64,000 nucleotides of DNA from Aeromicrobium chenweiae (lineage in GTDB: Bacteria; Actinomycetota; Actinomycetes; Propionibacteriales; Nocardioidaceae): assembly GCF_003065605.1 (NCBI RefSeq), contig NZ_CP026952.1, positions 868,001 through 932,000 of the forward strand, written 5' to 3'. The position numbers were made by a program, and so were the translations under genes. Shown in pieces: positions 36,114 to 59,716 of this stretch. The notes under the pieces were generated by a model that worked only from the letters and a program-made list of their open reading frames with translations, was not told where the DNA came from and made no database searches. The first letter of the stretch is position 1; each line of letters starts with the position of its first letter.

Positions 36114-38045
36114 ATGTCTGAGGGATCCCGCCGGCGCAACCGGTTCGGCGCCGTGCTGCGCACACCGCTCGGGCTCGCGGCCACGGTGCTGGCGGTGGGC
36201 ATGCTGGTGCTGGCCGTCGTGGCGCCGATCCTGTGGGCGGACTCCGCCCGTGCGGTCGACACCGACGACATCCTCGCCGGTCCGAGCGCCGAGCACTGGG
36301 CGGGCACCGACAACCTGGGTCGCGACATCATCTACCGGACGCTCGTGGCGACCCGGCTGTCCATCGAGCTGGCCCTCAGCGCGACCGCGATCGCCGTCGT
36401 GGTGGGTCTGGTCCTGGGCACCGCACCGCTGGTGCTGGGCCGCCGCGGCGGGCGCCTGGTCGTGGCCGGCGTCAACATCGCGGTCGCCTTCCCGGGCCTG
36501 CTGCTCGCCCTCTTCTTCGCGGTGGTCTTCGGCATCGGGGCCACCGGCGCGGTCCTGGCGATCGGCCTGGCCGGTGCGCCGTCGTTCGCGCGCCTGGTCC
36601 AGACGCTGGTCGCCGGTGTCGCCTCGCTCGACTACATCGCCGCGGCCCGGATCGCCGGGGTCGGCCGGTTCCGCGTGCTGCTGCGGCACGTGCTGCCCAA
36701 CGTCGCGGAGCCCTTGATCGTCAACGCCACGATCGGCGCGGGCAATGCACTGCTGGCCTTCGCCGGCCTGTCCTTCCTCGGCCTGGGCGTGCAGGCGCCC
36801 GCGTACGACTGGGGCCGGCTGCTGTTCGACGGCGTCGGCTCGCTGTACGTCAACCCGGGCGCGGCCCTCGCCCCCGGGCTGGCGGTGCTGATCGCGGGCC
36901 TGGGCTTCAACCTGTTCGGTGAGTCGCTCGCCAAGGTCGTGGGCGTCTCGACCGGCATCCCGCTCGGACGGGCCCGCCGGCCCGTGCCTGCGGCGCTCCA
37001 CGGCCCGTCCGGCCGCGACCCCGTCGACCAGTCGAGGAGCGAGGACGACCTGGTGCTCGACGTCCGGGGGCTGGAGGTCTCCTACCCGGGCCCCACCGGC
37101 CCGATCCGCCCGGTCCGCGGCCTGAGCTTCGGCGTGCGCCGGGGCGAGTCGGTCGGCATCGTGGGCGAGTCCGGGTCCGGCAAGTCGCTGACCGCGCTCG
37201 CGGTGTCCCGCCTGATCGACGACCCGGGACGGGTCGAGGCCGAGCGCATCCGCTTCCTCGGCGAGGATCTCCTGGCGCCCGACACCAAGGCCCAGCGCCA
37301 GGTGCTCGGGACGTCCATGGCCATGGTCTTCCAGGACCCCATGACGTCGTTCAACCCGACACGGCGCATCGGCGCCCAGCTGGCCGAGGTCTCGCGCCAC
37401 CACCACGGCATGGACAAGAAGCAGGCCCTGGCGCGTGCGGTCGATCGCCTCGGGGCGGTCCGCATCTCCGAGCCCGAGCGGCGTGCCCACCAGTACCCGC
37501 ACGAGTTCTCCGGTGGCATGCGTCAGCGCGCGATGATCGGGATGGGCGTGATGGGCAGCCCCGCGCTGATCATCGCCGACGAGCCGACCACCGCCCTCGA
37601 CGTCACGGTCCAGCAACAGGTCCTCGACCTGCTCGCGGCGATCCGCCGCGACGACGACGTCGCACTGGTCCTCATCAGCCACGACGTGACCGTGGTCGCC
37701 GACGTCTGCGACCGCGTCCTGGTGATGTACGCCGGGCAGATCGTCGAGGACCTGTCCGCATCGGACCTGACCACCGCGGCCCAGCACCCGTACACGCGGG
37801 CACTGGTCGCGGCGGTCCCCTCGATGGAGACGGACCTCGACGCGCCCCTGACGGTCATCCCCGGCCGTCCGGTGGACCCCTCGGACGTGCCGCAGGGATG
37901 CCCGTACTCCGCCCGGTGCCCGCTGGCGACCGAGCGGTGCTTCGTGGAGGACCCCCCGCTGCTGGCCCATGCCGCCGGCCGGGTCGCGTGCTGGCACGCC
38001 GGGGAGCCGATCGAGCTGGGACCGACCAGGGCAGGTGTGGTGTGA
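36114..38045 (+). CDS. Peptide ABC transporter permease (DppC) fused to ATPase (DppD)
   Basis: 643 aa. Residues 1-285 are a DppC-type permease: WAGTDNLGRDIIYRTLVATR, EAA loop IAAARIAGVGRFRVLLRHVL. After a 25-residue linker, residues about 310-643 are an ATPase with Walker A GESGSGKS at 351-358, signature FSGGMRQRAMIG, Walker B IIADEPTTAL and switch VLISHDVTVV. The OppD-type C-terminal cluster is present (GCPYSARCPLATERC). Normally these are two proteins; fusion fixes a permease:ATPase pair. The stop overlaps the GTG of the second ATPase gene (GTGA). Confidence 0.93.
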   Translation: MSEGSRRRNRFGAVLRTPLGLAATVLAVGMLVLAVVAPILWADSARAVDTDDILAGPSAEHWAGTDNLGRDIIYRTLVATRLSIELALSATAIAVVVGLVLGTAPLVLGRRGGRLVVAGVNIAVAFPGLLLALFFAVVFGIGATGAVLAIGLAGAPSFARLVQTLVAGVASLDYIAAARIAGVGRFRVLLRHVLPNVAEPLIVNATIGAGNALLAFAGLSFLGLGVQAPAYDWGRLLFDGVGSLYVNPGAALAPGLAVLIAGLGFNLFGESLAKVVGVSTGIPLGRARRPVPAALHGPSGRDPVDQSRSEDDLVLDVRGLEVSYPGPTGPIRPVRGLSFGVRRGESVGIVGESGSGKSLTALAVSRLIDDPGRVEAERIRFLGEDLLAPDTKAQRQVLGTSMAMVFQDPMTSFNPTRRIGAQLAEVSRHHHGMDKKQALARAVDRLGAVRISEPERRAHQYPHEFSGGMRQRAMIGMGVMGSPALIIADEPTTALDVTVQQQVLDLLAAIRRDDDVALVLISHDVTVVADVCDRVLVMYAGQIVEDLSASDLTTAAQHPYTRALVAAVPSMETDLDAPLTVIPGRPVDPSDVPQGCPYSARCPLATERCFVEDPPLLAHAAGRVACWHAGEPIELGPTRAGVV

Positions 38046-38788
38046 GCGAGCTGCGATTCGAGGACGTGACCGTCCGTTACGGCGGGACGACCGCCGTGGA
38101 CGGAGTGAGCCTGACGGTGCCCTCGGGCACGATCGTGGGGCTGGTGGGCGAGTCCGGGTCGGGCAAGTCGACCCTCGCCCGTGCGGCCGTCGGTCTCGCA
38201 CCGGTGGACAGCGGGCAGATCCTGCTCGACGGCGAGCCGGTGCCCGTCCGCGGCCGGCGCCGCCCGGTGCAGATGATCTTCCAGGACCCGTTCTCCTCCC
38301 TCGACCCCCGCATGAGCATCGGCGAGAGCGTCGCCGAGGCGGTGCCGCGCGGCATCGGCCGCAGCGAGCGCCGGACCGAGGTCGCCCGCCTGCTCGACCT
38401 GGTCCACATCGGCGCCGTCCGGTCCGACGCCAGGCCGTCGGAGATGTCCGGCGGGCAGCGCCAGCGGGTGGCCCTCGCCCGGGCGCTCGCGGCGCGTCCT
38501 GCCGTGATCGTGGCGGACGAGATCACGTCCGCGCTGGACGTCTCGATCCAGGGGACCGTCCTCAACCTGGTCCGCGAGCTCCAGGCCGAGCTCGGCCTGT
38601 CGATCCTGTTCATCTCCCACAACCTCGCGGTCGTGCGATACGTCGCCTCGGAGGTGGCGGTCATGCATCGCGGAGTGATCGTCGAGCAGGGCCCCACCGC
38701 GCAGGTGCTGGCGACACCCGCCCACGACTACACGCGCGACCTGCTGGCCGCCGTCCCCGGAAGAGCCCGACGAAGGAGTCCCCAATGA
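38042..38788 (+). CDS. Peptide ABC transporter ATP-binding protein, DppF type
   Basis: 248 aa. Walker A GESGSGKST, Q-loop MIFQDPFSSLDPRMS, signature MSGGQRQRVALA, Walker B VIVADEITSALD, switch LFISHNLAVV. It lacks the Cys-rich C-terminal extension seen in DppF/OppF and in the preceding fusion. It pairs with the ATPase half of that fusion. GTG 38042 overlaps the upstream stop, and its own stop overlaps the ATG of the S9/beta-lactamase fusion, so translation is coupled on both sides. Confidence 0.93.
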   Translation: MSELRFEDVTVRYGGTTAVDGVSLTVPSGTIVGLVGESGSGKSTLARAAVGLAPVDSGQILLDGEPVPVRGRRRPVQMIFQDPFSSLDPRMSIGESVAEAVPRGIGRSERRTEVARLLDLVHIGAVRSDARPSEMSGGQRQRVALARALAARPAVIVADEITSALDVSIQGTVLNLVRELQAELGLSILFISHNLAVVRYVASEVAVMHRGVIVEQGPTAQVLATPAHDYTRDLLAAVPGRARRRSPQ

Positions 38789-41700
38789 CCCGACGCATGC
38801 GCATCGACGACCTCACCGCGCTCGCGGTGCCGTCGCAACCGGCCCTGTCACCCGATGGTGCCCAGGTCGCGTACGTCCTGCGGACCCTCGACACCGAGCA
38901 CGACCGCAGCCACGACGAGCTGTGGCTCGTGCCGACGTCCGGCGGAAGCGCCCGTCGGCTGACCGCCGGTCCCGAGGACTCGGCACCCGTGTGGTCCCCG
39001 GACGGCTCCCGACTGGCGTTCCTGCGAGCCGGCCAGGTCCACCTGCTGACCACCGGCGGGGGAGAGCCCGAGCAGGTCACCCATCTGCCGGCCGGTGCCG
39101 GCGCGCCCGTGTGGAGCCCCGACGGGCAGCGCATCGCCTTCGCCGCGCCGGTCGACCCGACCGACGGCAAGGGCCCGCTCGTCTCGGCGCGCCTGGACTA
39201 CCAGACCGACGGAGCGGGGATGTTCGGCCCGGTCCGCCACCAGCTGCACGTGCTCGACCTGACCTCCGGCAGCTGCCGCCAGGTCACGGACGGTCCCGAG
39301 CACGCAGGCCAGCCCGCCTGGGCACCTGACGGGCGGACGGTCGCCTTCACCCGCCGCGTCGGCGCCGACAGCGACCTGACCTTCCGCACCGCCGTGCACC
39401 TGCTCGACGTGGACGACGTGCTGGCCAGGCCGCGCACGGTCACGTCCGTCGACGGCGTCGCGGCCACGGTGTCGTACGACAGCGACGGTGCGCACCTGCT
39501 CGTCGTGGGCCATCCCGGCGACCCGGTCGGGCACCAGCACCTGCTGCGCGTCGCCCTGGACGGCGGCGAGGCGGTCAGCCTCACCGCACACCTCGATCGC
39601 AACGTGATGCCGGGGGCGACGGCCTACCCGGGCGGTCGTCCGCAGCGCGACGACGCGGGGCGGATCCTGTTCTGCCTGCGCAACCGGGGCTGCACGCACG
39701 TGTGGGCCCTGGAGGACCCGACTGTGCCGGAGGGCCGCCCGGTCCTGGCCGGGCAGGACCGGGTCGTCTCGGGTCTCTCGGTGGTCGGCGGCACCGCGGT
39801 CGTCGCGCTGACCACTGCGACGTCGTACGGCGAGATCGTCGCGCTCGACCTCGCGACCGGCGCCGAGTCGGTGCTCACCGACCACGGCGCGTCTGTCGCC
39901 GGGATCGAGCTGTTCCGGCCCGAGTCGCGGACGTTCACGATCAGCGACGGCACGCAGGTGCAGGCGTGGCTGCTGCGTGACCCGGAGCGACCGGGTCCCC
40001 GTCCTCTGCTGCTCGACGTGCACGGCGGCCCCCACAACGCCTGGAACGGGACCGCCGACGAGATGCACGGCTACCACCAGGAGCTGGTGTCGCGCGGGTG
40101 GGCGGTCCTGTTGGTCAACCCGCGCGGCAGCGACGGGTACGGCGAGGCGTTCTTCGACGGCGTCAACGGCGCCTGGGGCGTCGCCGACGCGGCGGACTTC
40201 CTCGAGCCCATCGACGCGCTGGTGGCCGAGGGCGTGGCGGACCCGGACCGGCTCGCCGTCACCGGCTACAGCTACGGCGGCTTCATGACCGCGTGGCTCA
40301 CCGGACACGACGACCGGTTCAAGGCCGGCGTCGCGGGGGGCATCGTCAGCGACCTCGTGAGCGAGTTCGGCACCGCCGACGACGGTGTCTTCCTCAGCAC
40401 GTACGAGCTCGGCGGCTCCCCCTGGGACGATCCGGAGCGCTACGCGGCGATGTCGCCCCTCAGCCACGTCACGCAGGTGACCACGCCGACGCTGGTGCTG
40501 CACGGCCTCGCCGATCTCACGTGCCCCGTCGGGCAGGCCCAGCAGTGGCACAGCGCCCTGCGTTCCCAGGGCGTGCCGACCGAGCTCGTCCTGTACCCCG
40601 GCGCCTCCCACGCGTTCATCCTCGTCGGGCCCCCGTCGCAGCGTCTCGACTACGCCACCCGGGTCGTCGACTGGGTCGAGCAGCACACCGTGCGGGCCGG
40701 CCGGTCGCGGATCGACGTCGCGCACTGGGAGCGTCGCCTCGGGCAGCTCGCCGAGCGATACGGCGTCCCCGGCGCACAGCTCGGCATCCTGCGCCTCGGC
40801 GAGGACGGGCAGGACGAGGTCGCGGTCGCGTCGCACGGACTGCTCAACATCGACACCTCCGCCCCGGTGACCGAGGACTCGATCTTCCAGATCGGCTCGA
40901 TCACCAAGGTGTGGACCGCGACGGTCGTCATGCAGCTGGTCGACGAGGGTCTTGCGGACCTCGACGCGCCGGTCGTCGAGATCATCCCCGACCTGCGGCT
41001 GTCCGATCCCGACGTGACCAAGCGCATCACGCTGCGCCACCTGCTGAACCACACCAGCGGGATCGACGGCGACGTCTTCACCGACACCGGCCGCGGCGAC
41101 GACTGCCTCGAGAAGTACGTCGCCCTGCTCGGTGACGAAGCCCAGAACCATCCGCTCGGCGCCACCTGGTCGTACTGCAACTCCGGCTTCTCGGTGCTCG
41201 GCCTGGTCATCGAGCGGCTCACGGGCACGACCTGGGACCAGGCGCTGCGCGACCGGCTGTTCACGCCGCTCGGGATGCAGCACGCGATCACGCTGCCCGA
41301 GGAGGCGCTGCTCCACGCGGCCGCCGTCGGCCACGTCACGACGGACGGTCACAAGCAGGTCGCCCCGGCCTGGCAGCTGCCGCGCTCGATCGGTCCCGCG
41401 GGCCTGGTGACGGCGAGCGCCGCCGACGTCCTCGCGTTCGCCCGCATGCACCTCGAGAGCGGGCTGGCGCCGGACGGCAGCCGGATCCTCAGCGAGGAGT
41501 CGGCCGCCGCGATGGCCGCCCACCAGGCGGACCTGCCGGACAAGCACTCGCTCGGCGACTCGTGGGGCCTGGGCTGGATCCGGTTCGGCTGGGACGGTCA
41601 GCGGCTCTACGGCCACGACGGCAACACGATCGGCCAGTCCGCGTTCCTGCGCGTGCTGCCCGACGCGGGCCTCGCCGTGACGCTGCTGACCAACAGCGAC

Positions 41701-42084
41701 GGCGCTCGTGACCTCTACGAGGCCCTGTACCGCGAGATCCTGGCCGAGCTGGCGGGCGTGGAGATGCCGCGCCCGATCGCACCGCCCGAGCCGCCCGTCG
41801 AGCACGACATCACGCCGTACGTCGGTCGCTACGAGCGCTCGTCGGTGATCATGGAGGTGCTCGTCGCCGACGGCGAGCCGCGTCTGCGGACCACGCTCGT
41901 CGGACCGCTCGCGGAGCTCATCCCGGACCCGGTCGACGAGCACGCGCTCGTGCCGTACGCCGAGAACATCTTCCTCACCAAGCCGCCCGAGGCCGAGACC
42001 TGGTTCCCGGTGACGTTCTTCGAGCTGCCGACCGGCGAGCGCTACCTCCACTTCGGCGTCCGCGCGACGCCGCGGGTGAGCTGA
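38785..42084 (+). CDS. S9 prolyl-oligopeptidase fused to beta-lactamase-fold hydrolase
   Basis: 1099 aa in one frame. Residues about 1-390 are a WD40-like beta-propeller (PVWSPDGSRLAFL, PAWAPDGRTVAFT). Residues 390-640 are an S9 alpha/beta-hydrolase with Ser496 in GYSYGGFM, Asp577 in HGLADLTCP and His609 in GASHAF. Residues 645-1099 are a class C-type domain with S705-x-x-K708 in IGSITK, Y797-x-N799 and H944-D-G, plus a lipocalin-like tail. Both active sites look intact. No signal peptide. AAGGAG precedes ATG 38785. Likely a cytoplasmic peptidase that handles imported peptides at two sites, possibly with opposite stereochemistry (inference). Confidence 0.92.
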   Translation: MTRRMRIDDLTALAVPSQPALSPDGAQVAYVLRTLDTEHDRSHDELWLVPTSGGSARRLTAGPEDSAPVWSPDGSRLAFLRAGQVHLLTTGGGEPEQVTHLPAGAGAPVWSPDGQRIAFAAPVDPTDGKGPLVSARLDYQTDGAGMFGPVRHQLHVLDLTSGSCRQVTDGPEHAGQPAWAPDGRTVAFTRRVGADSDLTFRTAVHLLDVDDVLARPRTVTSVDGVAATVSYDSDGAHLLVVGHPGDPVGHQHLLRVALDGGEAVSLTAHLDRNVMPGATAYPGGRPQRDDAGRILFCLRNRGCTHVWALEDPTVPEGRPVLAGQDRVVSGLSVVGGTAVVALTTATSYGEIVALDLATGAESVLTDHGASVAGIELFRPESRTFTISDGTQVQAWLLRDPERPGPRPLLLDVHGGPHNAWNGTADEMHGYHQELVSRGWAVLLVNPRGSDGYGEAFFDGVNGAWGVADAADFLEPIDALVAEGVADPDRLAVTGYSYGGFMTAWLTGHDDRFKAGVAGGIVSDLVSEFGTADDGVFLSTYELGGSPWDDPERYAAMSPLSHVTQVTTPTLVLHGLADLTCPVGQAQQWHSALRSQGVPTELVLYPGASHAFILVGPPSQRLDYATRVVDWVEQHTVRAGRSRIDVAHWERRLGQLAERYGVPGAQLGILRLGEDGQDEVAVASHGLLNIDTSAPVTEDSIFQIGSITKVWTATVVMQLVDEGLADLDAPVVEIIPDLRLSDPDVTKRITLRHLLNHTSGIDGDVFTDTGRGDDCLEKYVALLGDEAQNHPLGATWSYCNSGFSVLGLVIERLTGTTWDQALRDRLFTPLGMQHAITLPEEALLHAAAVGHVTTDGHKQVAPAWQLPRSIGPAGLVTASAADVLAFARMHLESGLAPDGSRILSEESAAAMAAHQADLPDKHSLGDSWGLGWIRFGWDGQRLYGHDGNTIGQSAFLRVLPDAGLAVTLLTNSDGARDLYEALYREILAELAGVEMPRPIAPPEPPVEHDITPYVGRYERSSVIMEVLVADGEPRLRTTLVGPLAELIPDPVDEHALVPYAENIFLTKPPEAETWFPVTFFELPTGERYLHFGVRATPRVS

Positions 42085-50599: not shown

Positions 50600-51268
50600 T
50601 CAGCCCGCCACGGGGCGCCCCGGACCGGCCTCGAGATAGCGCAGCACCGCAGCGACGCGCCGGTCGGCGCGGTCGTCCGGGGCGAGGTCGAGCTTGGCGA
50701 AGATGTTCCGCACGTGCTTGTGGATCGCACCCTCGGTGACCACGAGCCGCTCCGCGATCGCGGTGTTGCCGAGCCCCTCGGCCATCAGTGCCAGCACCTC
50801 GTCCTCCCGCTCGGTGAGCCGGGAGAGCCGCGGGTCGGCCTGCTGGCGGGACAGCAGCTGGGACACCACGTCGGGGTCCAGCGCCGTGCCGCCGTCCGCG
50901 ACCCGGTGGAGCGCCTCGAGGAACTCCTCGACCCGTCCGACGCGCTCCTTGAGCAGGTAGCCGAGGCCCTGGACGCCCTGCGCCAGCAGGTCCGTCGCGA
51001 AGGCCTGCTCGACGTACGCCGACAGGACCAGGATGGCCAGGTCGGGCTGGCGGCGCTTGGCCTCCACGGCGGCGACGATGCCCTCGCTGGTGTGGGTCGG
51101 CGGCATGCGGACGTCGACCACGGCGACGTCCGGCCGGTGCTCGTCGACGGCCCGGAGGAACTCGTCGGCGTCGCCGGCGGTCGCCACGACGTCGATCGAC
51201 TCCGCACGCAACAAGCTGGCGAGGCCCTCGCGCAGCAGCGCGTCGTCCTCCGCGATCACGATCCGCAT
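50600..51268 (-). CDS. NarL/LuxR-type response regulator
   Basis: 222 aa. Receiver domain with acidic pocket AEDD and phospho-acceptor Asp52 (VAVVDVRMPP), switch residue in LVLSAY and Lys in YLLKERVG. LuxR-type HTH at about 155-210 (LTEREDEVLALMAEG, then AIAERLVVTEGAIHKHVRNI). ATG 51268 overlaps the end of the kinase gene by 13 nt. Probable target: the exporter operon 117 bp downstream. Confidence 0.94.
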   Translation of the reverse strand: MRIVIAEDDALLREGLASLLRAESIDVVATAGDADEFLRAVDEHRPDVAVVDVRMPPTHTSEGIVAAVEAKRRQPDLAILVLSAYVEQAFATDLLAQGVQGLGYLLKERVGRVEEFLEALHRVADGGTALDPDVVSQLLSRQQADPRLSRLTEREDEVLALMAEGLGNTAIAERLVVTEGAIHKHVRNIFAKLDLAPDDRADRRVAAVLRYLEAGPGRPVAG

Positions 51269-52497
51269 GGCAACCAAGCGTGCAACGTCGTCGGGCCGGC
51301 CGCCGGGCTGCTGACCTCGAAGCTGCCGTCGTGCGCCTCGATGCGCCGGCGGATGCCGGCCAGTCCGGATCCGGGTGTCTCGCTCGCGCCACCGTGGCCG
51401 TCGTCGGTGACCCGGACGTCCAGGTGCCCGTCGATGCTGCGGACGGTCACCGTCGCCTGCCGGGCGCCGCTGTGGCGCGAGACGTTGGTCAGTGCCTCGG
51501 CGACCATGTAGTAGGCGCTGGCCTCCACCGACGCGGGGCAACGGGTGGCGCTGACGTCGACCGCCGTGGGCACGCCGGAGGTGGCCGCCAGCCCCGCGAT
51601 CGCGCCCTCCAGCCCGCGGTCGGACAGCACCGGCGGCAGGATCCCCCGGATCGTGGTGCGCAGCTCGCCCAGCGCCCGCTCCACCGAGGTCTGGGCCTGC
51701 TCGAGCAGGTCGTCGGCAGCGGACCGGTCGTCGCCCAGCTGGCGGCGGGCCGCACCGATCAGGACGTTCGCCGCGACCAGCGGGTTCTGCGTGCCGTCGT
51801 GGAGCGAGCGCTCGATCCGGCGCAGCTCGGTCGCGTGCGCGTCGAGGGCGGCAGCACGGGTAGCGGTGAGCTCGGCGATCCGCAGGGGCAGGTCGGTCCC
51901 GGGCGGGGGCGGCAGGAGTGCGCGGCCGGGGCGGGACTGGAGGCGCGCCAGGGTCGGCGTGAGCAGGACGGTCAGGACGGCCCAGCCCACGGCCGAGAGC
52001 GCGACCAGCAGGGCCTCGCCCCACGACTCGATGACCCAGAACCAGAGCGCGGCGCTGGCCTCCCCCCGCGGGGCGAGCCACCACCACAGCGGGAAGGTGG
52101 CGTCTCGTACCGCGAAGAGCGGCAGCGCGACGCCGACGAGCCCGACCAGCAGCCCCCAGGTGGCGTGCACCACGAGCCATCGCACGTCCCGGCGCAGCGA
52201 CGCGTCGGCGAGGGCCGGCCGCAGTCCGGCGGGCAGCGGTCCCGGGCCCGGGACGTCCGTGCCCCACCGGGCGAGCCGGGTCCTCTCGCGGTCCGCGGTC
52301 CAGCGCACCACCCGCAGGACGGTCGGCGCGAGCAGCAGCCCCACGCCGACGACCGCGGTGACGGCGACCACGACGAGGAGGACCAGCGCGCCGAGCGCGA
52401 GCAACGAGGTGCCGAGCCCGCTGCCGAGCTCCGCGACCGATCGCAGCAGCTCGCGGGGACGCGTCGCCCACGACCGGCGGTCCGACAGCGCTCCCAT
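51256..52497 (-). CDS. Sensor histidine kinase (HisKA_3/NarX type)
   Basis: 413 aa. Membrane part at about 20-190 with paired helices near residues 35-60 and at 110-185, including an FxRD-like stretch. HisKA_3 segment with His233 in RRIERSLHDGTQN. The HATPase has VAEALTNVSRHSGA and DDGHGGASETPGSGLAGIRR. It phosphorylates the response regulator encoded downstream. I place the start at ATG 52497 because TAGGTT lies 7 nt upstream (52505-52510); in-frame GTG 52503 and TTG 52506 are possible. Confidence 0.9.
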   Translation of the reverse strand: MGALSDRRSWATRPRELLRSVAELGSGLGTSLLALGALVLLVVVAVTAVVGVGLLLAPTVLRVVRWTADRERTRLARWGTDVPGPGPLPAGLRPALADASLRRDVRWLVVHATWGLLVGLVGVALPLFAVRDATFPLWWWLAPRGEASAALWFWVIESWGEALLVALSAVGWAVLTVLLTPTLARLQSRPGRALLPPPPGTDLPLRIAELTATRAAALDAHATELRRIERSLHDGTQNPLVAANVLIGAARRQLGDDRSAADDLLEQAQTSVERALGELRTTIRGILPPVLSDRGLEGAIAGLAATSGVPTAVDVSATRCPASVEASAYYMVAEALTNVSRHSGARQATVTVRSIDGHLDVRVTDDGHGGASETPGSGLAGIRRRIEAHDGSFEVSSPAAGPTTLHAWLPCGS

Positions 52498-53608: not shown

Positions 53609-54517
53609 ATGAGTGCAGCCTCCGAGCGCACGACCATCCTCGTCACCGGCGCGGCCGGACCAGCGGGGCGCGCACTCGGCGTCCAGGTGCTGGAGCAGGC
53701 CGACAGGGGTGCGGGTCCGCGCCTGGTGGGCGTCGACCTCGCGCCGACCGACGTGCCCGGGTACGACGCGGTCCTGCCGGTGGTGGGCGCGCTCGATCCG
53801 GCGTACGACCAGGACATGCGCGACCTGGTGGCGCGGCTGCGTCCCGACCTCGTCGTCCCCACCGTCGCCGAGGAGCTGCCCCGGCTCGCCGTCCTCGGCC
53901 TGGCGACGGCGATGGGCGCGGGGCTGGTGCTCTCGGCGCCGGGCCCGGTCGCCGTCGCCGCCGACAAGCTGCTCACCATGTGGGCGCTGGCCGAGCGCGG
54001 AGTCGCGGTGCCGCCGCACGCGACGGTGGCGGAGGTGGGCTCGGCGGCCGACGCCGTGTCCTGGGGCGGCGGGCTCGTCGTGGTGAAGCCGCGGGTGAGC
54101 CGCGGCGGTCGCGGCGTGCACGTCGTCGAGGACGGGGGCGACCCGGTGTGGGACTCGCTCGACGCGACGTGGCTGGTCCAGGGCTATGCGCCGGGCGTCG
54201 AGTACAGCCCGCAGGTCTACCGCTCGCCGCACACCGGCAGGTGCCGGGTCGTGGTGCTGCGCAAGACCGAGCTCAAGCAGGGCCGGGTGGGCAACGCCGC
54301 GGCGGTCGAGCGCCTGCCCGACGGCGCCGAGCCCGACGTGGCCGCGCTGGCCGTTCGCACGGTGGAGGCGCTGGACCTGGTGGGTCCGGTCGACATGGAC
54401 GTGCGGAGGGCAGGCGACGGGACCCCCGTGGTGCTCGAGGTCAACAGCAGGTTCGGCGCGCTGTCCGCCCACGCCCCCGAGGTCCTCGAGGACGTGCTCG
54501 TCGAGTGGTCGGGCTGA
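53609..54517 (+). CDS. ATP-grasp protein, carbamoyl-phosphate synthase large-chain-like
   Basis: 302 aa. N-terminal Rossmann-like domain (TTILVTGAAGPAGRALGVQV), then ATP-grasp: central VVVKPRVSRGGRGVHVVED (lysine and Gly-rich loop), LVQGYAPGVEYSPQVY and the metal-binding DLVGPVDMDVRRAG and VVLEVNSRFGA (Glu and Asn). ATP-grasp enzymes ligate a carboxylate to an amine or thiol through acyl phosphate. It precedes a processive glycosyltransferase by 3 nt and may modify a sugar precursor or polymer with an acyl group (inference). TAGACT (53597-53602) lies 6 nt before ATG 53609: leaderless. Confidence 0.87.
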   Translation: MSAASERTTILVTGAAGPAGRALGVQVLEQADRGAGPRLVGVDLAPTDVPGYDAVLPVVGALDPAYDQDMRDLVARLRPDLVVPTVAEELPRLAVLGLATAMGAGLVLSAPGPVAVAADKLLTMWALAERGVAVPPHATVAEVGSAADAVSWGGGLVVVKPRVSRGGRGVHVVEDGGDPVWDSLDATWLVQGYAPGVEYSPQVYRSPHTGRCRVVVLRKTELKQGRVGNAAAVERLPDGAEPDVAALAVRTVEALDLVGPVDMDVRRAGDGTPVVLEVNSRFGALSAHAPEVLEDVLVEWSG

Positions 54518-54520
54518 TCC

Positions 54521-55798
54521 GTGATCGCCTTCGTGGCGGCACTGGTCCTCGTGCTGCTCGTGCCGCTCGCCGCCGCCGGGATCGTGCGTTTCGGGATGGT
54601 GCCGTTCGCCCTCGTCTTCGAGGCCCGCGCCCGGCGCAGCGGCCCCGGCCCGGCCGGCTACGGCCCGATGTTCACCGAGGCGCCGCGACTGAGCGTGGTG
54701 GTGCCGGCCTTCGAGGAGGCACGCGTCATCGACCAGTGCGTACGCTCCATCGCCCGCAGCGACTATCCGCACCTGGAGATCGTGTGCGTCGACGACGGCT
54801 CCACCGACGACACCTTCGCGCGGATGCAGCAGCTGGCCGCCGACCACCCGGGCGTCGTGCGGGCGCTGCGGCAGGCCAACGCAGGCAAGGGCGCAGCCCT
54901 CAACACCGGGATCGCTGCGGCCGCCGGCGAGGTCCTCGTTCTCGTCGACTCCGACGGTGTCTTCCGCCCCGACACCCTGACGATGCTGCTGCGCGGCTTC
55001 CGCAGCCCGCGCATCGGCGCGGTGTGCGGCAACGACAGGCCGGTGAACCTCGACCGGACGCTCACCCGCCTCCTCTCCCTCATCAGCCACGTCGGCACCG
55101 GGCTGATGCGTCGCGGCCTCGACGTGCTCGGCTGCCTGCCGGTCGTGTCCGGCAACATCGGCGCCTATCGTCGCGACGTGCTCGACCGGGTGGGGCCGCT
55201 GCGCACGGACACGCTGGGGGAGGACCTGGAGCTGACCTGGCGGGTCCACCGGGCGGGCTTCCAGGTGGCGTTCGCGCCGCAGGCCCTGGTGTACGCCGAG
55301 TCGCCCTCCACCCTGCGAGGGCTGTGGCGGCAGCGGGTGCGGTGGGCGCGGGGACTGCTGCAGACCATCGAGATGCACTGGCCGATGGTGGGCAACCCAC
55401 GGTACGGCGCCTTCGGCGTCTACCTGCTCTTCAACCTGGTCACCCAGGTGATCGCGCCCTTCCTGCAGCTGTCGGCCGCGGTGGGCGCGGGCTGGCTCCT
55501 CGCCGTGGACGGCACCGACTGGCTGCCACGGACGTGGTGGGCGTGGGTGCTGCTGCTGGGGGTGCCGACGTCGCTGGCGCTGCTGGCGCTCGCGCTGGCG
55601 CTCGACCGGGCCGTCGACGACCTGCGCCACCTTTGGACGGTCCCGCTGTGGCCGTTGTACTCGACCCTGATGACCTTCGTCGTGCTGGACGCCGTACGGC
55701 TCGAGCTCGGGAACGCGGAGAACCGATGGAACAAGCTGGAGCGGACCGGAACGGTCTCGGTGCGGGGACTGAGCGACGGCGATGGCCGTGGCTCCTGA
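54521..55798 (+). CDS. Processive family 2 glycosyltransferase (PgaC/hyaluronan synthase-like)
   Basis: 425 aa. N-terminal membrane helix, then the GT-A domain: LSVVVPAFEEARVIDQCV, VCVDDGSTDD, DSDGVF (DxD), LGEDLELTWRV and RQRVRWARG (QxxRW). The last two mark processive inverting synthases that polymerise N-acetylglucosamine or glucuronate chains. Three to four C-terminal helices form the pore (LFNLVTQVIAPFLQL, WWAWVLLLGVPTSLALLAL). GTG 54521, 3 nt after the ATP-grasp stop. The next gene begins inside its last 73 nt. Confidence 0.93.
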   Translation: MIAFVAALVLVLLVPLAAAGIVRFGMVPFALVFEARARRSGPGPAGYGPMFTEAPRLSVVVPAFEEARVIDQCVRSIARSDYPHLEIVCVDDGSTDDTFARMQQLAADHPGVVRALRQANAGKGAALNTGIAAAAGEVLVLVDSDGVFRPDTLTMLLRGFRSPRIGAVCGNDRPVNLDRTLTRLLSLISHVGTGLMRRGLDVLGCLPVVSGNIGAYRRDVLDRVGPLRTDTLGEDLELTWRVHRAGFQVAFAPQALVYAESPSTLRGLWRQRVRWARGLLQTIEMHWPMVGNPRYGAFGVYLLFNLVTQVIAPFLQLSAAVGAGWLLAVDGTDWLPRTWWAWVLLLGVPTSLALLALALALDRAVDDLRHLWTVPLWPLYSTLMTFVVLDAVRLELGNAENRWNKLERTGTVSVRGLSDGDGRGS

Positions 55799-56973
55799 TC
55801 GTCGTGGGCATCGTGACCACCTCGTTGGTCGCCGCCTTGGCGATCTCGCGGCCGTGGGAGACGGCCGGACCCGTGGCGTCGGGTGAGGACGCCCCGGTGG
55901 TGCCCCCGATGCGCCCCTCCCAGCTCCCCGACAAGACCCGGTCGGTGAGCGTCGACTTCGCGACCGTCGTCGACCCGGACACCGACTGGTCGAAGGTCGC
56001 TGTCCGGCTCGACGAGGCGGGCGCCAACGCGGTCGAGCTCAACGCCGGGCGGATCGAGTTCACCGCCTTCGACTGGGAGGCCCACCCCGCGGCGGCCGCG
56101 GAGCCCGGCACCGACCACCTGGCCGTGGCGGCCCGGGCCCTCCACCGGGCGGCGGACGGGTCGAACCGCCAGGTCGGCCTGGTCGTCGACACCATGGCAC
56201 CGAACTGGTTGGCGGACCACCCATCCGCCGCCGGGGTCTCCGTCGACGGACGCCGGTCGGTCTACCAGGCCTCGGCCAGCCAGCTCGTCGACGGCGAGGT
56301 CGGCCGACGCCTGGTCGACCTCGTCGGCGCGCTCTGCGAGCGCTACGACCCCGCCCAGATCTCGATCACCGAGCTCTTCCTCAGCGATTACACCTTCGGC
56401 AGCGACGACCGGCGACTCTTCGAGCGGATGACCGGCCGCAGCGACTGGCCGCGCACCAGCGACGGGTCGATCAACGAGGACGCGTCGAGCATCAAGGCGT
56501 GGCGCGCGGCGGTGATCGCCGAGCTGCTCGCGCGGATGCGGGAGCGGATGGACGCCACCCGGGACGGTGCGGGGTCGCGGATCGGCCTCGCGATGGACGT
56601 CCGGATCGACTGGAAGAACCCGGCCCGCGGAAACCTGATCAGCGGCCACGACTACGCCGTCCTGCTCACCCGGGTCGAGCGCCTGATCCTGTGGGCCTAC
56701 CTCTACCGCACCCGTCGCCCGGAGGACCTCGACCGGGTGCTCGACCGGCTGAGGCGGACCGGGCTCGACATGTCGCGGCTGACGGTGTCGGTCGGGCTCT
56801 GGGAGCGACCGCCCAGTCGGCAGGTCGGGCCGATCGGCACGTCGCAGTTCCTCGCCGCGCTGCGGGCCGCGGAGAGCCACGGGATCACCTCGGTCAACGT
56901 GACACCGCTGTCGCTGATGTCGGATCCCTACTGGAAGGCGCTCGCCTCGGTGTGGAACCCCGACGGCGCCTAG
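55726..56973 (+). CDS. Membrane-anchored protein, probable TIM-barrel glycosidase
   Basis: 415 aa. One N-terminal membrane helix at about residues 20-41 (WPWLLIVVGIVTTSLVAALA) leaves the rest outside. The body looks like a TIM barrel: VSVDFATVVDPDTDWSKVAV, ANAVELNAGRIEFTAFDW, VGLVVDTMAPNWLADHP, ISITELFLSDYTFG, GLAMDVRIDWKN, LILWAYLYRT. The order is reminiscent of the C-terminal glycosidase domain of PgaB, but I cannot confirm homology. ATG 55726 has GGAG upstream and overlaps the synthase gene by 73 nt in another frame. Likely trims or binds the polymer made by that synthase (inference). Confidence 0.75.
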   Translation: MEQAGADRNGLGAGTERRRWPWLLIVVGIVTTSLVAALAISRPWETAGPVASGEDAPVVPPMRPSQLPDKTRSVSVDFATVVDPDTDWSKVAVRLDEAGANAVELNAGRIEFTAFDWEAHPAAAAEPGTDHLAVAARALHRAADGSNRQVGLVVDTMAPNWLADHPSAAGVSVDGRRSVYQASASQLVDGEVGRRLVDLVGALCERYDPAQISITELFLSDYTFGSDDRRLFERMTGRSDWPRTSDGSINEDASSIKAWRAAVIAELLARMRERMDATRDGAGSRIGLAMDVRIDWKNPARGNLISGHDYAVLLTRVERLILWAYLYRTRRPEDLDRVLDRLRRTGLDMSRLTVSVGLWERPPSRQVGPIGTSQFLAALRAAESHGITSVNVTPLSLMSDPYWKALASVWNPDGA

Positions 56974-58640
56974 TCCTGGTGGTCGCCGGGGCCCGCGGCG
57001 TCGGGCAGCCGGACGACGACCTCCGTGCCGCGTCCGGGCTCGCTGTCGATCGTGAGCGTGCCTCTGTGCTCCGACACGAGCGCCTGGACGAGCGTGAGGC
57101 CGAGCCCGACGCCCGCGATCCGGCGACGGCGGCTCTCGCGCGAGCGGTAGAAGGGCTCGGTGATGCGGCGCAGCTCGTCCGGTTCGATCCCGGTGCCGTC
57201 GTCGGCGACCCGGATCCGTGCGCCGCGGCTGCCGTCGGGCGCGGGCTCGGCCACCACCTCGACCCGGACCTGCCCGCCGGCGTGGCTGTACTTGACGGCG
57301 TTCGTGAGGAGGTTGTCGACGACCTGGCCGAGCCGCTGCGGGTCCGAGACGAGCGGCACGCGGTCGTCGCCGGACAGCTCCAGCGCCACGGCGGCGGCGT
57401 CCGCGATCGGCCGGACGCTGGCGAGCGCGGCCCGCACGACCTCGACGGCGTCGACCTCCTCGTGGGCCATCTGCTCGCCGGCGGCCAGGCGGGCGCTGAG
57501 GAGCAGGTCGTCGACGAGGCCGCGGAGGCGGCGGGCGTTGCGGGCCAGCACCTCGACGTACTCGCGCTGCTCCGTCGTGAGCCCCGCGGGGTCGAGCCGC
57601 AGCAGGTCGACGTAGCCGAGGATCGAGACCAGCGGGGTGCGCAGCTCGTGGGTGACCAGTCCGATGAACTGCTCCTGCCGCTCCTCCTCCTCCTCGCGCG
57701 CGGTCACGTCGGTCGCGACGACGAGGTAGCCCTCCGGCGAGGCCGGCCCCAGCCCCGAGCCCGGCTCCGACGCAGGCTCCGCCGCGTTGCCCGGTCGGGG
57801 CGTCACGACGTACTCCACGACGCGCGGGGAACCGCCGATCGACCGTCGCCACAGCGAGACGTGCGAGCCGCCGTCGGCCGCCGCCCCGACGAGCCCGGCC
57901 AGCGATGCGCCGTCCTCGCCCATCAGCCGGGTCAGGTCGGTGCCCACCAGGCGGTCGGCGGGAGCCTCGAAGAGTCGCTCGGCGCCACGGCTCGCCGCCA
58001 CCAGGCGGCCGGTCGCGTCGGTCGCCATGATCGCCTGCTCGGACGCGGCGGACATGATGCTGCGCATCAGGTTCTCGGCCGCCGCCAGGCTGCGCTCGTG
58101 CCGGCGGACGGTGGAGATCATCGCGTGGGTGTGGACCATCAGGGCGCAGATCATCAGCGCGGTGACCGCGCCGTGCAGCACGGGGTAGAACCGGTCGTCG
58201 TCGGTGAGGAACACCGGGGCGAAGCAGGCGAGGGTGACGGCGAGGAGTCCCGCGAGGAGCGGGAGGAGGCCGGGGACCAGCGCGAGAGCGATGCCGGGGA
58301 TGAAGAGCAGCACGGCGACCGAGCCGCTTCGGTCCCCGCTGCCGAGGTCGAGCAGGGACACGGCGAGGATCTGGCCGAGGGGGAGCAGCAGCATCCACCC
58401 GCCCGGCAAGCGCGCCGGCCGCGCCAGGATCGCCAGCGCCTGGACCGTGAGGCTCACCGCGACCGCGGCGACGACGAGCGGGTCGCGAGTGGGCAAGGGG
58501 ATCTTGGAGACGATCAGGGCCACCAGGACGACCAGCAGGGTGAACGGCAGGTGGCGCCAGCCCGACGCGTCCGGCGTCGGCCACGCGTCAGCGACCCGGC
58601 GGGTCAGTCCGCGCACGCGCGTGCCGGCCACCGTGGTCAT
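56970..58640 (-). CDS. PAS-domain sensor histidine kinase
   Basis: 556 aa. Six or seven membrane helices in the first 190 residues (LPFTLLVVLVALIVSKI, SVAVLLFIPGIALALVPGLL). A PAS domain at about 190-310 (AIMATDATGRLVAASRGAER). HisKA has His331 in IGLVTHELRTPLVSILGYVD, and the HATPase has LGQVVDNLLTNAVKYSH, VADDGTGI and GVGLGLTLVQAL. Its ATG shares a base with the stop of the REC-PIG-L gene, so the two are coupled and are presumably partners. Its 3' end overlaps that of the convergent glycosidase-like gene by 4 nt. Confidence 0.93.
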   Translation of the reverse strand: MTTVAGTRVRGLTRRVADAWPTPDASGWRHLPFTLLVVLVALIVSKIPLPTRDPLVVAAVAVSLTVQALAILARPARLPGGWMLLLPLGQILAVSLLDLGSGDRSGSVAVLLFIPGIALALVPGLLPLLAGLLAVTLACFAPVFLTDDDRFYPVLHGAVTALMICALMVHTHAMISTVRRHERSLAAAENLMRSIMSAASEQAIMATDATGRLVAASRGAERLFEAPADRLVGTDLTRLMGEDGASLAGLVGAAADGGSHVSLWRRSIGGSPRVVEYVVTPRPGNAAEPASEPGSGLGPASPEGYLVVATDVTAREEEEERQEQFIGLVTHELRTPLVSILGYVDLLRLDPAGLTTEQREYVEVLARNARRLRGLVDDLLLSARLAAGEQMAHEEVDAVEVVRAALASVRPIADAAAVALELSGDDRVPLVSDPQRLGQVVDNLLTNAVKYSHAGGQVRVEVVAEPAPDGSRGARIRVADDGTGIEPDELRRITEPFYRSRESRRRRIAGVGLGLTLVQALVSEHRGTLTIDSEPGRGTEVVVRLPDAAGPGDHQD

Positions 58641-59716
58641 CAGCCGCCGCCGCCGTGCGCGGTGTCCGCCGCGGAGTCGTCCACGGCCTGCGTCGTCCGC
58701 ACCGTGGTCGTGGCGCGCACCGTCTGGGTCACCCGGACGGTCTCGAGCGGCTCGGCCTCCAGGGCTCTGCTGAAGCGGGCCCAGTAGCGCGCGGTCGCGC
58801 GGACCACGTCGGGCTGGATGTAGTCGCGATGCCTCTGCGAGACGAAGGCGGCGAGCATCTCGAGCTTGGTGTCGATGAACCCGTCGACGGTGACGAAGCG
58901 GTTGGGCCGGAAGTCGACGGTGGACGACGGGCTCTGGAAGCACCACAGGTCGGCCACCGACCGCGCGCCGACCTCCACGGCGTCGTGCACGGCGCGGTGG
59001 TCCTGGTGGCGGTCGTGGATGCCGTGGGTGTAGATGCGGTCGGGGTCGACCTCCGCGACGGCCCGCTCGACGGCCCCGATGAGGCCGTCCGCGGGTGACA
59101 TCCGGGTGTCGGCGAAGTCCAGGTGGATCAGCCGGGCACCGACCACGGCGGCCGCGTGCATTGCCTCCTGATGGCGGAGGTCGGTGCTCCCGCCGACCGC
59201 GCCGCCGGACAGGATGAGCGTGGTGAGCTCGTCGCCGGCCGCCGCGTGGGCCGCGAGGGTCGCACCGACCCCGAGCTCGACGTCGTCGGGGTGTGCGCCG
59301 ATCGCCAGCACCCGCAGCCGGGACGGGGCGCGGCGGCTGCGGGCCAGCTGCGCCAGCTCGCGGACCCGCCTGAGCAGGTCCTCGGCCCCGATCGGCTTGG
59401 CGATGAAGTCATCGGCGTCCTCGCGGAGCGCCTCGACAGCGTGGTCGAAGGTCGGGTAGGCGGTGAGGATCAGGATCGCGACGCTCGGGTTGATCGTGCG
59501 GAACTCCGGCAGCGCCTGCAGCCCCGAGCGGCCCGGGAGCCGGATGTCGGCCACGAGCACGTCGTAGCCCTGCCGCCGCATCGCCGCGAGGGCCTCGTCG
59601 GCGGTGCCCGCCAGGTCGACCTCCATCCCGCCGAGTCGCTGGAGAGTGGCACGCATGAAGTTGGCCGCGTCCCGGTCGTCCTCGAGCACGAGCACCCGGA
59701 TCGCGGCCTCGGCCAT
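58640..59716 (-). CDS. Response regulator receiver fused to PIG-L deacetylase
   Basis: 358 aa. Residues 6-120 are a CheY-like receiver: E12/D13 pocket, phospho-acceptor D57 (VADIRLPG), T85 and K107 (FIAKPIG). Residues 134 to about 320 are a PIG-L/LmbE zinc deacetylase: IGAHPDDVELGVG with H142, D144, D145, and the HDRHQDHRAVH motif at 234-244. The tail is Thr/Val-rich. PIG-L enzymes remove acetyl groups from GlcNAc-containing molecules. An enzymatic output under phosphorelay control is rare, and the kinase gene follows directly. GAGGGGG precedes ATG 59716. Cytoplasmic, so its substrate should be a precursor or nucleotide-linked or lipid-linked sugar. Confidence 0.92.
   Translation of the reverse strand: MAEAAIRVLVLEDDRDAANFMRATLQRLGGMEVDLAGTADEALAAMRRQGYDVLVADIRLPGRSGLQALPEFRTINPSVAILILTAYPTFDHAVEALREDADDFIAKPIGAEDLLRRVRELAQLARSRRAPSRLRVLAIGAHPDDVELGVGATLAAHAAAGDELTTLILSGGAVGGSTDLRHQEAMHAAAVVGARLIHLDFADTRMSPADGLIGAVERAVAEVDPDRIYTHGIHDRHQDHRAVHDAVEVGARSVADLWCFQSPSSTVDFRPNRFVTVDGFIDTKLEMLAAFVSQRHRDYIQPDVVRATARYWARFSRALEAEPLETVRVTQTVRATTTVRTTQAVDDSAADTAHGGGG

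Follow-up and report, generated by a model that had tools for sequence, protein, structure and literature searches.

The gene at positions 58640..59716 (reverse strand) of a 64,000-nucleotide stretch of the Aeromicrobium chenweiae genome (NCBI RefSeq assembly GCF_003065605.1, contig NZ_CP026952.1, positions 868,001 to 932,000; hereafter the window) encodes a 358-residue response regulator in which a receiver (REC) domain is joined to a PIG-L (LmbE) domain. We propose that the output of this protein, REC-PIG-L, is the N-deacetylation of an amino-sugar intermediate of a surface glycan, a reading that we rate at a probability of roughly 0.55 and in which phosphorylation, activity and product alike are predicted. 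It draws on the domain make-up of the protein, its conserved residues, a single fusion lineage within the sample of relatives, and a gene neighbourhood that these relatives share.

The coding frame begins with ATG and has a third-position GC content of 96%. The receiver occupies about residues 5-128 (59333..59704) and the PIG-L domain about residues 132-330 (58727..59323), both on the reverse strand with coordinates calculated from residue numbers. Pfam places Response_reg (PF00072) at residues 8-118 (E 3.1e-24; 85.7 bits against a gathering cut-off of 30.2) and PIG-L (PF02585) at residues 137-248 (E 1.5e-22; 80.9 bits against 28.2). An earlier note on the window, made from the DNA letters alone, had described a complete receiver with D57, T85 and K107 and a complete PIG-L domain with the motifs AHPDD and HDRHQDHRAVH; Pfam and the alignments bear this out, with the numbering correct. 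The acid pocket of the receiver is D13/D14, GAHPDDVE lies at 140-147 (AHPDD at 141-145), and HDRHQDHRAVH, with H237 and H240, at 234-244. No hydrophobic segment was found in the protein by a hydrophobicity scan. An AlphaFold model built from a 44-row alignment has two well-folded domains (mean predicted local distance difference test, pLDDT, 91.6), with low confidence confined to a tail from residue 332, and the last receiver helix (111-129) lies close to the first PIG-L strand (135-140). The relative orientation of the domains is left uninterpreted because the predicted template modelling score (pTM) is 0.72. In structural comparisons with VIA the first half matches receivers (3crn, Z 22.2) and the second half matches BshB (6p2t, Z 27.6, 199 aligned), Foldseek agreeing in both cases, and diacetylchitobiose deacetylases score at Z of about 25.

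The architecture is broadly distributed. A genome scan gave at least 80 loci; among the 80 listed, 43 have a receiver-like part before the PIG-L part and 37 match in the PIG-L part alone. The 43 are a sample and include two with a decayed receiver (L039 and L040). The search for REC-PIG-L architectures and their neighbours that the earlier note had advised thus yields at least 43 relatives of the same layout, commonly with glycan-type neighbours. They span the Actinomycetota (Cellulomonas, Promicromonospora, Blastococcus, Microbacterium, Leifsonia, Thermoleophilia and others), the Pseudomonadota (Comamonas, Legionella rowbothamii, L. drozanskii, Alphaproteobacteria, Burkholderiales and Marinicella) and, with one Myxococcales genome among those listed, the Myxococcota. 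Strong matches occur in 16 of 197 genomes of the window's taxonomic family, its own genome counted, and in 5/396 genomes of a phylum sample, where two of the five are PIG-L proteins without a receiver; these two scans scored only 5 or 10 candidates per genome, so absence in them is weak. A search for plasmid copies gave no match at E 1e-40. We note that in one relative (L038, 7019-8482) an extra receiver precedes the REC-PIG-L arrangement within the same protein.

Both domains retain their functional residues in most relatives. Across the 44 rows (the window protein and 43 relatives) AHPDD and H240 are invariant, and D57 is present in 42/44, T or S at position 85 in 41/44 and K107 in 38/44. 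In a larger set of 60 rows, H142, D144, D145, D239, H240 and R241 are invariant and H237 is kept in 59, the exceptions to the PIG-L motif being one at Ala141 and the one at His237. A receiver was counted as complete if it has D57, K107, T or S at 85 and an acidic residue at 13 or 14, and this is the case in 49 of the 60 rows, the other 11 being incomplete. The spacing from P108 to H142 between the domains is 34-36 residues in 46/60 rows. Among eight proteins scanned against Pfam, the receiver of L036 falls below the cut-off and L039, L040, L074, L123 and L124 have no receiver match.

A membrane histidine kinase is encoded at 56970..58640 on the same strand, its start sharing one base with REC-PIG-L, namely the last base of the stop codon. 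It has 556 residues, about five hydrophobic segments, PAS_4, HisKA and HATPase_c domains (Pfam and hydrophobicity scan) and the H-box THELRTP, in keeping with the view that the coupled PAS kinase is the obvious phosphodonor. Kinase linkage was tabulated for 60 loci (L109, L110 and L111 left out) as a match of at least 60 bits within 6 kb. Where the receiver is intact, 42 of 49 loci have such a kinase (on the same strand in 40), compared with 2 of 11 where it is incomplete (Fisher p 3e-5, kinship ignored). Two loci scored as intact receiver without kinase, L022 and L032, stop no more than about 0.6 kb from the gene on one side. Kinase presence therefore tracks receiver integrity, and co-conservation with the kinase, the lack of which the earlier note had set down as refuting its reading, is found, with some proteobacterial relatives lacking a nearby kinase. 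Of the genomes sampled in the window's taxonomic family, each of the 12 whose receiver is intact has a kinase match no more than 70 bases away on the same strand, that at L122 being weak (60.8 bits); none of the four with a decayed receiver does, although L125 has a kinase 656 bases away on the opposite strand. A separate pair of genes at 50600-52497, by eye a kinase and a LuxR/NarL-type response regulator, lies about 4.5 kb from the REC-PIG-L kinase and is a possible cross-talk partner.

The genes around REC-PIG-L recur as a set. Neighbours were counted within 6 kb, at thresholds of 40-60 bits, in the 43 REC-PIG-L loci and the 37 PIG-L-only loci among those listed. An ATP-grasp gene is nearby in 39/43 against 3/37, a family 2 glycosyltransferase (GT2) in 34/43 against 5/37, a kinase in 30/43 against 0/37 and a PHP phosphoesterase in 27/43 against 0/37; a TPR protein (10/43), a histidine phosphatase (7/43) and a barrel protein resembling part of PgaB (1/43) are each found at 0/37 of the controls. 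The contrast is favoured by its design, since the controls are mostly Bacteroidota (four are Actinomycetota: L042, L043, L047 and L050) and several query proteins were taken from the test loci L001, L004, L029 and L036. With the window proteins as sole queries the counts are 35/43 against 2/37 for ATP-grasp, 33/43 against 5/37 for GT2 and 30/43 against 0/37 for the kinase. Gene calls in the loci of relatives came from a codon-score script. The common actinobacterial order is REC-PIG-L, ATP-grasp, PHP, GT2, (REC), kinase, and that in Alphaproteobacteria is GT2, TPR, REC-PIG-L, ATP-grasp, histidine phosphatase; the Legionella loci L025 and L033 and loci L034-L037 have a related cassette with TPR proteins and a histidine phosphatase, the latter missing in L025. 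The arrangement of the window, with ATP-grasp, GT2 and barrel genes converging on the kinase and REC-PIG-L, is present in 11 of the 12 intact-receiver genomes of its taxonomic family, the window counted, with surroundings that differ among the 11, and also in Promicromonospora (L004). None of the three biosynthetic genes is present in the fetched stretches of the decayed-receiver genomes L123-L126, whereas L039 and L040 keep their PHP, ATP-grasp and GT2 neighbours. The shared neighbourhood of GT2, ATP-grasp, PHP or histidine phosphatase, and PIG-L genes suggests that actinobacteria and several proteobacteria have an amino-sugar glycan pathway that is as yet uncharacterised.

A tree of 100 PIG-L domains comprises 54 receiver-bearing rows, six decayed-receiver rows and 40 others; L109, a duplicate of L041, and OWN_L083 were left out, and of the other own-genome PIG-L sequences OWN_L084 had no domain match and the fifth (L087) was not extracted. 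One branch (99/86) parts the 60 rows with a receiver or decayed receiver from the other 40, and the six decayed-receiver rows form one group within the receiver side (100/98). The five relatives without a receiver that score next best with the profile of the REC-PIG-L family (L042, L043, L047, L110 and L111) also form one group (96/92) and have GT2 and ATP-grasp genes nearby, so the enzyme's role may predate the receiver. The row without a receiver that branches nearest the REC group, L050, is on a long branch. The simplest reading of the tree, in which the order of nearby branches is weakly supported, is that the fusion arose once, perhaps among biosynthetic genes that were already neighbours, and that receiver function was later lost once.

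In the PIG-L tree the rows of the window type are nested next to Cellulomonas (18 rows, 100/100). In trees of the partner genes ATP-grasp and GT2 (FastTree, modest support) the 12 window-type rows attach outside all other sampled REC-PIG-L partners, adjoining the partners of L110 and L111, with support for the remaining group of 0.91 for ATP-grasp (39 rows) and 0.75 for GT2 (34 rows). These topologies suggest that REC-PIG-L was paired twice, the second time with a distantly related ATP-grasp/GT2 pair; fast evolution of the window-type ATP-grasp and GT2 genes is the alternative.

All three partners in the window are on the forward strand. The ATP-grasp protein (53609..54517, 302 residues, PF02655) belongs to a family in which K and LEvNpRfG positions are conserved across a 54-row alignment, and the PHP rows of the other loci likewise keep conserved His and Asp positions; no paper was found that links the ATP-grasp Pfam family PF15632 to the ter operon. 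The membrane GT2 (54521..55798, 425 residues, PF13641) is PgaC/NodC-like, with 33% identity to E. coli K-12 PgaC over 294 columns. Its best-scoring NCBIfam model is PgaC/IcaA (TIGR03937; 185.9 bits, below the cut-off of 422.3), and DxD and QxxRW, the marks of processive synthases, are present in 49/49 GT2 rows, among them the duplicate pair L109/L041. Two GT2 genes lie in tandem in one relative (L018, 9993-13014).

The third partner (55726..56973, up to 415 residues) is a membrane-anchored barrel protein that may start at ATG 55726 or at GTG 55804. Its conserved, MEQA-like N-terminus (55726-55804) overlaps the 3' end of the GT2 gene in another frame, so this conservation may stem from the GT2 gene. 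The protein is present in 12 loci and has no Pfam match. By VIA its AlphaFold model (pLDDT 79.8) resembles the C-terminal hydrolase domain of PgaB (4p7q/4p7n, Z 27.1, root-mean-square deviation 3.1, 320 aligned); the top five matches are all PgaB (Z 25.7-27.1), followed by beta-galactosidase barrels and Cwp19 at Z of about 24-25. A PDB sequence search with the single protein gave three weak matches (E 0.2-0.7), a PDB search with its profile gave none, and a profile comparison with the C-terminal part of E. coli PgaB gave no match. Judged from its modelled fold, the barrel protein may define a new glycoside hydrolase family.

The genome has five PIG-L matches, and only the window gene has a receiver match at the same place; separate genes pass the NCBIfam cut-offs for MshB (340 against 224 bits) and Mca (464 against 277). 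Membership of REC-PIG-L itself in either thiol family was rejected as the main reading: it scores 67.4 bits against the BshB1 (bacillithiol) cut-off of 182.5 (TIGR04001), and the MshB (mycothiol) model TIGR03445, with a cut-off of 224.35, lies outside the 25 best of 89 NCBIfam hits, of which the best is 67.4 bits. The low-molecular-weight thiol deacetylases BshB and MshB share its fold and motif and lack the receiver. The fold is also that of N,N'-diacetylchitobiose deacetylase (Dac), a PIG-L family enzyme whose entry 8bgo holds diacetylchitobiose as substrate; Dac is archaeal, has no receiver, and is 16-24% identical in structural alignments. The locus resembles pgaABCD/icaADBC in its PgaC-like GT2 and possibly in a third gene, whose modelled fold hints at the PgaB hydrolase domain, and differs in that the putative deacetylase is a PIG-L domain with a receiver and without a hydrophobic segment, and in having an extra ATP-grasp gene. 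Membership in the poly-N-acetylglucosamine (pga/ica) systems was rejected: the GT2 is under the PgaC cut-off and there is no CE4 deacetylase in the operon, the sole PF01522 (CE4) match in the genome lying at 1.74 Mb and the window at 868-932 kb. In the NodC-NodB-NodA system a GT2 synthase makes a chain, the non-reducing end is deacetylated and the freed amine is then N-substituted. Our hypothesis, by analogy, is that the window genes are functionally alike, with PIG-L in place of the CE4 deacetylase, ATP-grasp in place of the acyltransferase, and a kinase in control. Of the sugar chemistries raised in the earlier note, the glycan option is favoured because a PgaC-like GT2, a PgaB-hydrolase-like barrel and an ATP-grasp gene adjoin, and the mycothiol-like option is weakened because the genome has its own MshB and Mca.

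A plausible scenario is that the membrane kinase encoded directly after REC-PIG-L senses a signal and phosphorylates D57, and that the receiver, which connects with the catalytic domain through its final helix and a short linker, would then alter the rate of deacetylation. The PIG-L domain, presumably binding zinc, would take the acetyl group off an N-acetyl-amino-sugar. The substrate should be cytoplasmic because REC-PIG-L has no hydrophobic segment, and the likeliest one would be an intermediate of a surface amino-sugar glycan, either a nucleotide sugar or a chain, short or still growing, that comes from the PgaC/NodC-like GT2 and is deacetylated at its non-reducing end; synthases of the PgaC class keep the non-reducing end of the nascent chain inside. 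The ATP-grasp enzyme would add an amide-linked group to the freed amine, and the product would then be trimmed or set free by the barrel protein on the outer side of the membrane. The full scheme, a two-component system regulating surface-glycan chemistry in which phosphorylation of REC-PIG-L decides whether intracellular amino-sugar units undergo de-N-acetylation and then amide tagging by the ATP-grasp enzyme, either ahead of chain synthesis by the GT2 or while it proceeds, is put forward tentatively.

Several observations weigh against our proposal that the response regulator controls deacetylation of a glycan intermediate, and three rivals were considered, whose weights are not exclusive. 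The receiver may exert no control over catalysis and serve instead in dimerisation, stability, docking (for example to the membrane GT2) or as a phosphate sink, with a constitutively active PIG-L domain; this is a possibility to be taken seriously, though a good deal less probable than the control we favour. The six decayed-receiver rows (L123-L126, L039 and L040) have lost the phospho-residues and all retain a complete PIG-L motif, which means that the enzyme is not dependent on a functional receiver. The uncertain domain orientation in the model points the same way, as does the second, single-domain receiver beside the kinase in many loci: among actinobacterial loci of the PHP type, most have the kinase at a distance of 2.4-4 kb, often beside such a receiver of its own. 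No kinase was found within the loci examined for the alphaproteobacterial rows L034-L037 and the Legionella rows L025 and L033, and most of these receivers have an altered pocket (K to R in L035-L037; DD to SD, VD, PN or PD); the receivers of these six rows may work without phosphorylation. In the stretch fetched for L122, REC-PIG-L has its weak kinase match beside it and all three biosynthetic genes are missing. Against a passive receiver stand the 49 of 60 rows in which the phospho-residues are complete, the kinase linkage that follows them, and a short inter-domain spacer that varies little in length across most rows.

The remaining rivals concern the chemistry. An unlikely one is that the glycosyltransferase, phosphatase, PIG-L and ATP-grasp ligase make an aminoacylated amino-sugar metabolite, thiol or antibiotic-like, by mycothiol/bacillithiol logic rather than a polymer. 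The parallel of glycosyltransferase, phosphoesterase (PHP in 27 and histidine phosphatase in 7 of the 43 listed loci), PIG-L and ligase with the steps of mycothiol synthesis speaks for it, together with BshB as the nearest PIG-L structure, but the GT2 is a membrane PgaC/NodC-like enzyme with QxxRW, unlike MshA, the genome already has MshB and Mca, and the window version includes the membrane-anchored PgaB-hydrolase-like protein. Two TPR proteins from Gram-negative loci also count against this pathway: PrsT is their best-scoring family and the exporter PgaA a weaker match, with every score below its cut-off. The polymer reading has difficulties of its own. PgaB and IcaB deacetylases act outside the membrane, and extracytoplasmic deacetylation of the PgaB type does not match a REC-PIG-L without a hydrophobic segment. 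Foldseek, ranked by E-value, places beta-amylase, Cwp19 and beta-galactosidase before PgaB for the barrel protein; because of this different order, and because sequence comparison gives no confirmation, its likeness to PgaB is a fold hint. Neither ATP-grasp nor GT2 was seen within the short locus of L050. Least probable, and by some way, is a PIG-L domain that is no deacetylase here, being a GalB-like hydratase or a non-catalytic binding domain in a protein that regulates something else: the hydratase GalB (5cgz) has the PIG-L fold and ranks high among the structural matches (VIA rank 5, Foldseek rank 25), whereas the near-complete invariance of the PIG-L motif across the 60 rows and the glycan-type genes around it argue for a deacetylase.

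The regulation of surface polysaccharides is commonly attributed to transcription or cyclic di-GMP. Here the response regulator would itself be the deacetylase, so that a sensor kinase would directly govern one chemical step in making the glycan, and some bacteria may thus switch a glycan-modifying enzyme by phosphorylation and not by gene expression. If this is so, matrix charge or capping would be switched quickly and without transcription, in a glycan yet undescribed. The idea is testable with purified parts because REC-PIG-L is a small protein without a predicted membrane segment and its gene lies beside that of its kinase. Response regulators with an enzymatic output are already known. 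CheB joins a receiver to a methylesterase that acts on chemoreceptors, and is likewise a response regulator with a hydrolase output, although its output fold and substrate are unrelated to those of REC-PIG-L. The earlier note's description of response regulators as normally controlling transcription or second messengers is too restrictive, as the main text of PMC5847659 records receivers fused to metabolic enzymes, including a REC-BcsA-like glycosyltransferase (MTH_548 type, Methanobacteriaceae), and describes such archaeal fusions as phyletically narrow. That fusion, too, puts a receiver on a glycan enzyme, one of the same Pfam family (PF13641) as the GT2 in the window; it is confined to three archaeal genera, and REC-PIG-L is found in three bacterial phyla. 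The terms PIG-L, LmbE and deacetylase do not occur in the main text of PMC5847659. No paper on the REC-PIG-L architecture was found in a literature search conducted mostly at the level of abstracts, and an earlier mention is possible. The PIG-L output, which we did not find in print, is broadly distributed and tied to a glycan-type cassette.

Elsewhere in the window, we note that an open reading frame at 37969-42084 encodes, by eye, what we take to be an S9-type peptidase joined to a beta-lactamase-like serine hydrolase.

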